Shown: positions 316 to 51,586 of the stretch, piece by piece
Layout of the letters: each line of letters opens with the position of its first letter
Numbering within the stretch: the stretch's first letter is position 1
Assembly: GCF_900102375.1 (NCBI RefSeq)
Contig: NZ_FNBO01000003.1
Location: 1-64,000 of the forward strand
DNA: 64,000 bases
Direction: 5' to 3'
Source: Halorubrum xinjiangense
GTDB lineage: Archaea; Halobacteriota; Halobacteria; Halobacteriales; Haloferacaceae
Notes under the pieces: model-generated
Told to the model about the DNA's origin: nothing
The model's database searches: none
The model's input: only the letters and a program-made list of their open reading frames with translations
Translations under genes and position numbers: made by a program

Positions 316-427
316 GCCTTTCGCTTATAAATGATTGATTGTGGTTCGGCGGCGAACGGCTCTAACCTCTCAGCCGCTCGTTTATAACTGGGTGCCAGTC
401 GATTGGCGGTGAACGACTCCAAAGCCC
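316..427. repeat. 57-bp direct repeats with TTATAA, copy 1 array
   Basis: CGCTTATAA at 322 recurs as CGTTTATAA at 379, exactly 57 bp later. CAGCCG at 371 recurs at 428, again 57 bp later, where the unit runs into the left arm of the inverted repeat. The units also share a (C/G)GGCG(A/G)TGAACG-like segment. The same period and core are seen in the array at 50783-51019. Each unit carries a haloarchaeal TATA-like hexamer. Confidence 0.8.
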
Positions 428-656
428 CAGCCGTGAGGCGGGCGCACGCTCGTTGCGCTCCTCGCTCGTTCGCTCCGCTCACTCGCTGCGGTGCTTACGT
501 CACCTGCGCCCGCCTCACGGCTGCCCCTTTGAGTCCCGCCCAGCACCGCAACCGCAGCCTCACGCCTCCCCAGCCTCGTCGGTCGCCGTCGCTTCGCTCG
601 GCGACCGACTCCCTCGCGCGTGCGACTCGCGCCCTCCGGGCGCTCGTCGGCACGCG
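428..656. other. Structured repeat element, copy 1 (inverted arms, conserved block, two further stems)
   Basis: Left arm 428-446 (CAGCCGTGAGGCGGGCGCA) is perfectly complementary over 19 bp to 505-523, enclosing a 58-nt loop that contains GTGCTTACGTC (491-501). A block at 521-580 follows that is 58/60 identical to copy 2. A 10-bp stem pairs 578-587 with 600-609, and a 6-bp stem with a TCC loop (629-643) lies inside a 7-bp stem pairing 617-623 with 650-656. Copy 2 at 51020-51484 has the same order of parts with matched changes in the stems. I cannot tell whether it acts as RNA or DNA. Confidence 0.75.
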
Positions 657-748
657 CCACCGCTCACCGTATAACTGATCGTCGCGGTCGCTCAGATCCT
701 ATTTAAATATCGCACCGCTGCCGATCACGGCGCCCGCTCTCGCACGGA

Positions 749-50689: not shown

Positions 50690-50782
50690 AGTAATAACGG
50701 TTGGGGCGGCAGGCACCGAGTCCCTTCCTGCGGGACCGCGGTCCACGCTAGCCGGGGACCTACGGATCGGCTCCGGTGGACG

Positions 50783-51019
50783 TTTTCGCCGCAGCCGCTC
50801 TTTTATAAATAGACAACGCCGGATCGACGACGAACACCGCCAAAGCCCCAGCCGCTCGTTTATAAACAATCGACGACGGATCAGCGGTGAACACCTCCAA
50901 AGCCCCAGCCGCTCGCTTATAAATAGTTGCCTGCGTCTCGGCGGTGAACACCGCCAAAGCCCCAGCCGCTCACTTATAAATAATTGACTGCGTCTCGGCG
51001 CAGAACACCTCCAAAGCCC
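50783..51019. repeat. 57-bp direct repeats with TTATAA, copy 2 array
   Basis: CAAAGCCCCA at 50841, 50898, 50955 and 51012 is spaced exactly 57 bp. GCCGCTC at 50794 and 50851 carries the period one unit further left. Each unit has AGCCGCTC(G/A)(C/T)TTATAAA. The last unit merges into the left arm of the inverted repeat. 57 = 3 x 19, so a leftward frame gives the 19-residue repeat YKRAAGALEVFTADPSSIV; I treat this as a by-product of the period. Confidence 0.9.
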
Positions 51020-51484
51020 CAGCCGCGAGGACGGCGCACGCTCGTTGTCGCCCGAAAATCGGAGATTTTCGGGATGTCGTCAGAATCCTTTGGATTCTGA
51101 CTGCTAGCCAGAAATCTCTGATTTCTGGCGATGACGAGAGAGCTTTGCTCTCTCGAACCACGCGCTTCAGTCGCTCGCTTCGCTCGCTCCTTCCAGTGCT
51201 TACGTCGTCATCAGAACGCGAAGCGTTCTGATTGGCTCACGAGAGCTCCGCTCTCGTGAACGCCTGCGCCGTCCTCGCGGCTGCCCCTTTGAGTCCCGCC
51301 CCGCACAGCAACCGCAGCCTCACGCCTCCCCAGCCTCGTCGGGCGCGTCTTCGGGCTCCCTCCGGTCGCCCTCGTCGCGCCCGACTCCCTCGCGCGTGCT
51401 GACTCGCGGCCGCCGATGGCGGCCGCTCGCAGGCACGCAGGGAGGCGCGACGCGCCTCTTGCAGCCGGCGGCAGAGCCGCCGGC
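51020..51484. other. Structured repeat element, copy 2 (with string of 3-nt-loop hairpins)
   Basis: Left arm 51020-51038 (CAGCCGCGAGGACGGCGCA) pairs perfectly over 19 bp with 51265-51283. The enclosed loop holds five perfect 23-bp hairpins (10-bp stems, 3-nt loops) and one of 21 bp. A 60-bp block at 51281-51340 matches copy 1 at 58 of 60 positions. The 10-bp stem 51338-51347 / 51376-51385 and the 9-bp stem 51406-51426 (GAT loop) occupy the same places as in copy 1 but with different, still complementary bases. Two more hairpins lie at 51442-51458 and 51464-51484. Copy 1 is at 428-656. Confidence 0.8.
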
Positions 51485-51586
51485 GACGCCACCGCATTCA
51501 TTTATAAATGTACGTCGCCGCCGCTCCCGGCTTATTAAATAGCGTTCGAGCCGCGGTCGTCGTCGCCGAGCCCGACGGGGAGCGCG
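51485..51586. other. AT-rich tail of copy 2, before glmS stop
   Basis: CATTTATAAATG (51499-51510) is a perfect palindrome with a TATA core. TATTAAATAGCG (51533-51544) mirrors TATTTAAATATCG of copy 1 (700-712). In both copies this tail lies within 50 bp of the stop codon of a minus-strand gene. Confidence 0.55.

Follow-up and report, generated by a model that had tools for sequence, protein, structure and literature searches.

Small two-hairpin units, very probably mobile and stacked within a larger mobile element, at a string of perfect hairpins in Halorubrum xinjiangense

The hairpin string and its surroundings

The analyzed window, a stretch of 64,000 nucleotides from Halorubrum xinjiangense (contig NZ_FNBO01000003.1, positions 1 to 64,000), contains two copies of a dispersed non-coding repeat with a folded core of about 250 bp, referred to here as the host element. 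Copy 1 (415-663, minus strand) is the base form without cassettes, matches the covariance model with 142 bits and lies at a site whose orthologs were located by a cysK-like gene. Copy 2 (51007-51495, RNA sense on the minus strand) carries cassettes inside, and its assignment is based on BLAST copies in the same genome, on covariance-model copies of the base form and on a covarying fold. In copy 2, one arm of host stem I (51021-51038) pairs with the other (51265-51282), both on the minus strand and supported by covariation across 40 copies and 13 genera. Host hairpin II (51338-51385, minus strand) is self-complementary in copies that differ in sequence and length, and the apical helix of host hairpin III (51406-51426, not assigned to a strand), which is not part of a cassette, is shared, with compensatory changes, by the copies aligned in A1. 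Tandem satellite units of about 62 bp with TTATAAA-like motifs (50790-51012, not assigned to a strand; self-match at 50788-50912) adjoin the RNA 3' end. The satellite units at 50790-51012 and at 296-414 show TTTATAAA-like TATA motifs at regular spacing. Beside the satellites, ARAGORN calls a tRNA-Arg (CCT) at 50696-50785, which has no other support and may be spurious.

The sequence-only reading had described the DNA between 51051 and 51484 as nine perfect hairpins. All nine are indeed perfect and lie where it had placed them, with stems of 10, 10, 10, 9, 10, 10, 9, 7 and 9 bp and a loop of 3 nt in every case, and the 6-bp stem that it had noted in copy 1 (629-643) is present as well. Of the 10 hairpins in the 64-kb window that combine a stem of at least 9 bp with a 3-nt loop, 8 fall in this string, while dinucleotide shuffles of 51013-51494 averaged 0.008 such hairpins and never exceeded 1, versus the 8 observed. 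For the 40 element copies (12.6 kb), 79 hairpins of this class were counted, versus 7 in a background of 115 kb of flanking and window DNA; with stems of at least 10 bp, the numbers are 40 and 0, respectively. The surplus in these copies is restricted to 3-nt loops. As the density of such hairpins is about 100-fold over the background, the equal density that had been proposed as evidence against the nine-hairpin claim was not what was found. A chance origin of the string is excluded by the shuffles and the background density.

Comparison of the host copies revealed that the natural unit is the hairpin pair, rather than the single hairpin. Since copies differ by pairs of hairpins at fixed positions, copy 2 of the window holds four cassettes, and eight of the nine hairpins are thus four two-hairpin cassettes, none of them assigned to a strand. 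Cassette A+D (51048-51160; hairpins 51051-51073 and 51135-51155), recognized by copy comparison, carries in its linker cassette B+C (51077-51131; hairpins 51079-51101 and 51107-51129), a 55-bp unit of the form TC...GA with TG on both sides. Cassette E+F (51208-51260; hairpins 51210-51232 and 51237-51259) is a 53-bp unit of the form TC...AA with CG at 51206-51207 and 51261-51262. The limits of cassette G+H (51439-51487; hairpins 51442-51458 and 51464-51484) were set by copies without it. The ninth hairpin (51406-51426) is the helix of the host element mentioned above, with its counterpart in copy 1 at 629-643. The cassettes measure about 50-60 bp and consist of two perfect stems of 7-11 bp closed by 3-nt loops.

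Spread and fold of the host element

In its own genome, the host was found as 103 BLAST pieces and as 146 matches with the covariance model of one domain; the 40 copies that were read thus understate the copy number. The model used for searching was built from 19 cassette-free minus-strand copies of the Halorubrum genome. It matched 290 of 392 Halobacteria genomes, representing 70 of the 86 genera sampled, with up to 85 copies in genomes of other families. A simple GC3 gene call placed 13 of the 40 copies between convergent genes, 25 between tandem genes and 2 between divergent genes, such that divergent promoters are avoided. The host is present in both orientations, which excludes a cis-regulatory element of fixed orientation.

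Presence and absence of the host were followed at orthologous sites. The cysK-like gene was used as the anchor for the first of these, glmS being unsuitable with best relatives about 75% identical. At this site, 6 of 30 Halorubrum genomes contain the host, with differing stems and cassettes, and in most of the remaining genomes the convergent genes are nearly adjacent without it. A second site, in the genus of genome G300, differs from genome to genome. G300 has a host pair, G398 a pair containing an E+F-like cassette, and G400 one in which an arm is inverted. The host is single or reduced in G385 and G399, and others, such as G227, G401 and G402, have no host copy there. In G400 (L410, orthologous to L193:520-790), it is the left arm that seems inverted, as a block of about 90 bp between its own inverted repeats and with the outer ends unmoved, a large-scale version of the loop flips described below. 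Between the flanks of the same site, G401 (L413) contains a different inverted-repeat element, AGAGCCTGTCCGAAAA ... TTTTCGGACAGGCTCT.

In other genera, the host usually occurs as head-to-head pairs around a palindromic center of about 27 bp with a consensus near GTAGCCGGTTGGTCAACCGGC. Such a pair measures about 268 bp and has long inverted ends, with GGGGCTTTCTGGCTGT as the outer ends, and the two ends are separate folds. Outer-end tandem satellites adjoin the host in several genomes, as they do at 50790-51012 of the window. One locus of G398 (L407) contains about five tandem copies of a satellite of about 45 bp with this host outer end, next to a host pair, which in related species is accompanied by far fewer such satellites. 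Among haloviruses, 31 viral contigs contained a 15-mer from the host core, a number not above chance expectation, and a host pair had no match in phage records. The host matched none of the 4227 Rfam models, even at E<=0.1, and no description of it was found in the open-access literature searched, where full-text matches to the core sequence came from unrelated work.

When aligned on the minus strand, the 19 cassette-free copies present a branched fold in which 23 pairs show double changes, and RNA folding favored the minus strand in 40 of 40 copies, with a mean gain in stability of 24 kcal/mol. For 38 matches from other genera, double changes were seen in 29 of 36 pairs, with a covariation score of 0.600, versus 0.168 in shuffled alignments and at most 0.094 in slid versions; double-changed cells number 297, versus 83 after shuffling. 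The recurring TC/CT mismatches of the plus strand are tandem G-A pairs on the minus strand, a common stable motif. Unpaired purine-rich motifs (GUAAGCAC, GCGCAGCGAG) are conserved, and on the sense strand, G-U is found over A-C by 53 to 13.

The very strong covariation, the conserved unpaired motifs, the G-U excess on one strand and the higher stability of the minus-strand RNA all speak for the host and its hairpins being a functional structured non-coding RNA, with the hairpins as expansion segments selected for RNA folding. Nonetheless, we consider this explanation unlikely for the system as a whole. The most variable host helix presents few wobbles (7 of 493 cells), although selection favoring strong stems at high salt and a GC content of 70% might also explain such scarcity, and head-to-head pairs about 27 bp apart leave no space for two ordinary promoters. 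As for the cassettes, their loops are strand-symmetric and they occur in protein genes too, as described below. A structured RNA thus fits the host better than it fits the cassettes, and we infer that the host is compatible with acting either as RNA or as folded single-stranded DNA.

Two-hairpin cassettes inside and outside the host

A pattern scan of named genomes for E+F yielded at least 109 sequence stretches and at least 110 copies, and plasmid searches located it on plasmids of Natrinema, Halostagnicola, Halomarina and Natronomonas, while no match was found in haloviruses. Among the copies listed, 77 lie within the host, and a motif test flagged 33 as outside. Of these 33, a few (e.g., L296, L315 and L384) seem to be host copies in which the motif is damaged, and at least 23 are clearly outside, in IS6 genes and at TnpB-side sites. 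The contexts outside the host comprise IS6-type transposase genes, positions beside TnpB in IS605/IS1341 elements and an ABC-transporter gene. CG is found on both sides of the unit in 103 of the 110 listed copies, with a single CG in the empty sites. Compared with intact annotated IS6 genes, ...TTCGC-CG-TCGG becomes ...TTCGC-CG-[TCCTCAG...GTGGA]-CG-TCGG, a gain of 56 bp, and compared with intact relatives of the ABC-transporter gene, ...GTGT-CG-TTG becomes ...GCGT-CG-[TCATCAG...GTGAA]-CG-TTA, a gain of 55 bp. Many haloarchaeal IS6-type genes (L282, L401-L403, L405 and others) contain E+F at one common site. As this single site is occupied in several species, most IS6 insertions are probably one event that was carried along, and the spread of IS6 genes with E+F is apparently that of a disrupted lineage, which may be non-autonomous. 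The IS6 copies of E+F show a short terminal match only (TCC...GGA).

Twelve of the outside contexts of E+F share one common site, and OrfB_IS605 and TNB domains were identified in 7 of the 8 neighbors tested. Such proximity to TnpB genes would be in line with the host being a palindrome-associated element (PATE) derived from IS200/IS605 and the cassettes being its modules or TnpB guide-RNA modules, as would the fact that such palindromes are a known target of SMR-A elements in Haloquadratum (PMC3119063). We regard this explanation as very unlikely, however, since genome G135 contains 85 host copies with neither TnpB nor a Y1 transposase, G231 contains 79 copies and no Y1, and TnpB loci with a nearby host copy are few, at about the chance rate. 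Moreover, host pairs have matching inverted ends (G300, G231 and G003), which PATEs lack. With a host-rich genome free of TnpB and Y1 and no TnpB association beyond chance, derivation of the host from IS605 is unsupported.

The other cassettes were compared among host copies. A+D is found without B+C in L010, L012, L013, L017, L030 and L037, while the complete A+B+C+D is found in L009, L011, L016, L025 and copy 2 of the window. Copies with A+D only carry a single TG, and insertion of B+C converts A-TG-A to A-TG-[TC...GA]-TG-A. L204, from a family other than that of Halorubrum, has an A+D cassette at the same host position but turned around, and no flanking duplication was seen for A+D in the copy comparison. 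G+H is missing in most short copies and present in L010, L019, L024 and others, and its duplication is ambiguous. With A+D lacking a clean duplication and G+H being ambiguous, the comparisons do not establish a single insertion rule for all cassettes. Further hairpin pairs occur at other host sites. On a plasmid of Halomicrobium urmianum (L284:680-795), all of A+B+C+D is present as an array whose stems differ, and the surrounding DNA shows no strong host match.

These comparisons bear on several points of the sequence-only reading. The stems, which it had considered unrelated, belong to units that recur in other copies, genera and families. Its view that units are gained and lost while the frame of the element is kept agrees with what was seen across the 40 copies and with an orthologous host copy that lacks a cassette in G300 and contains an E+F-like one in G398. 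Confinement of the hairpins to this element holds for the hairpin GCCGGCGGC-N3-GCCGCCGGC, which was within the host at every inspected site in the Halorubrum genome, at several positions and in both orientations, but does not hold for E+F across haloarchaea. Recognition of shape, rather than sequence, is plausible, as the shape is conserved and the sequence is free.

In the unbiased set of 40 copies from the same genome, cassette stems are nearly mismatch-free, and stems vary between cassettes by paired changes (e.g., TCAGAACGC versus TCAGAAATC in E). The E and F loops are each homopurine or homopyrimidine in 95 of the 110 listed copies (about 86%), versus the 25% expected for free letters, and both triloops are found in both orientations on identical stems. 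As a requirement acting on RNA of one strand would favor one loop orientation, a DNA-level process, in which either strand folds and loops invert, is a better fit for the cassettes. It had been suggested that polymerase fold-back or template switching produced the hairpins individually at their present positions, in which case a constant size would reflect a process and not descent. The near-mismatch-free stems, the inverting triloops and the one inverted arm of about 90 bp are signatures of hairpin-templated DNA events, yet many copies, also in other families, have identical stem sequences at corresponding sites, and E+F enters unrelated genes as a whole of 53-54 bp, for which the empty sites are exact. 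The hairpins are instead inherited and copied as two-hairpin cassettes. Production of the hairpins one by one is very unlikely, and fold-back as their origin is largely refuted, although it may be a means of keeping stems perfect and inverting loops.

Taken together, the string at 51051-51484 is very probably a set of small mobile elements stacked and nested in a larger mobile element. Direct support comes from the identity of cassettes across copies and genera, exact empty sites, nesting and the occurrence of both orientations and, for the host, from covariation and from presence or absence at orthologous sites.

Possible mechanism and relation to known systems

In this reading, the host is a multi-copy non-coding mobile repeat of haloarchaea, the minus strand of which adopts a conserved branched structure, and its guests are two-hairpin cassettes, each copied as one unit. 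For E+F at least, insertion takes place at a CG dinucleotide, leaving CG on both sides. We infer that a trans-acting enzyme may take up the folded single-stranded two-hairpin unit, recognizing it by the shape of the paired hairpins and by a short foot (TC...GA adjoining CG or TG), and may join it at CG or TG, preferably in DNA that itself folds. Perfect stems and inverted loops would follow from repair that uses one arm as the template for the other. Cassettes may pile up in palindromic mobile DNA because a self-folding insert would do little harm there; as an insert lengthens a stem-loop while leaving the rest of the fold intact, it would persist. No mobilizing enzyme was found, and Y1 and TnpB are both absent from at least one host-rich genome.

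Several known systems share some of these features. In bacteria, REP/BIME/REPIN sequences with RAYT (Y1) are moved as a unit of two short hairpins, are extragenic and present a short conserved foot beside the hairpin. E+F resembles these in being a two-hairpin unit that is moved whole, with exact empty sites. The cassettes differ, however, in lacking a conserved foot of the GTAG/GGAG type, in having free stem sequences that differ between families and in having a flanking repeat of 2 bp, and Y1 transposases are missing from genomes rich in host copies. The host pairs of other genera are MITE-like in their matching inverted ends (ACAGCCAGAAAGCCCC ... GGGGCTTTCTGGCTGT), non-coding nature and high copy number. 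Unlike in MITEs, each host end is a covarying fold of about 110 nt and the two ends have different stems; no parent transposon was found, and one orthologous host site showed no clean duplication. While covariation and conserved internal loops liken the host to an Rfam RNA family, the host differs in being mobile, with up to about 146 copies per genome.

The closest likeness is to SMR-A of Haloquadratum walsbyi (HqIRS42, HqIRS43 and HqIRS55), which are about 110 bp long, end in prominent inverted terminal repeats and do not duplicate their target (PMC3119063). These tiny elements target near-terminal palindromes of mobile elements, notably IS605-type elements with TnpB and PATEs, and their mobilization was called enigmatic (PMC3119063). 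Like SMR-A, the cassettes are non-coding, at 53-55 bp too tiny to code for a transposase, are multi-copy and comprise several unrelated sequence families with the same habits, and E+F is found at TnpB-side sites of IS605-type elements, as well as in host stems. In contrast to the approximately 110 bp of SMR-A, the cassettes measure about 50-60 bp, consist of two hairpins and occur in many genera. They lack prominent inverted terminal repeats, and although A+B+C+D reaches about 113 bp, it is two nested units. Moreover, CG and TG are duplicated at the flanks of E+F and B+C, respectively, whereas SMR-A shows no duplication. As habits are shared while size, terminal repeats and duplication differ, and as the comparison is by description and not by sequence, the cassettes are kept apart from SMR-A members.

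We tentatively propose, with somewhat less than even confidence, a two-tier system across Halobacteria, composed of an undescribed folded mobile element and of shape-recognized two-hairpin units of about 53 bp that insert at CG or TG. If true, the host would be read as RNA or single-stranded DNA by some protein, at up to about 146 copies per genome, and the units of about 53 bp would rank among the smallest mobile elements known. The host covariation is strong enough to suggest a putative dedicated RNA- or single-stranded DNA-binding partner, and the strand-symmetric loops and perfect stems would preserve traces of hairpin-templated DNA repair in natural genomes. What looked like a curious row of palindromes thereby becomes a concrete and testable mobile-element system and, as a cassette with defined ends, a target dinucleotide and empty sites is at hand, the question of what mobilizes SMRs becomes approachable in any transformable haloarchaeon.
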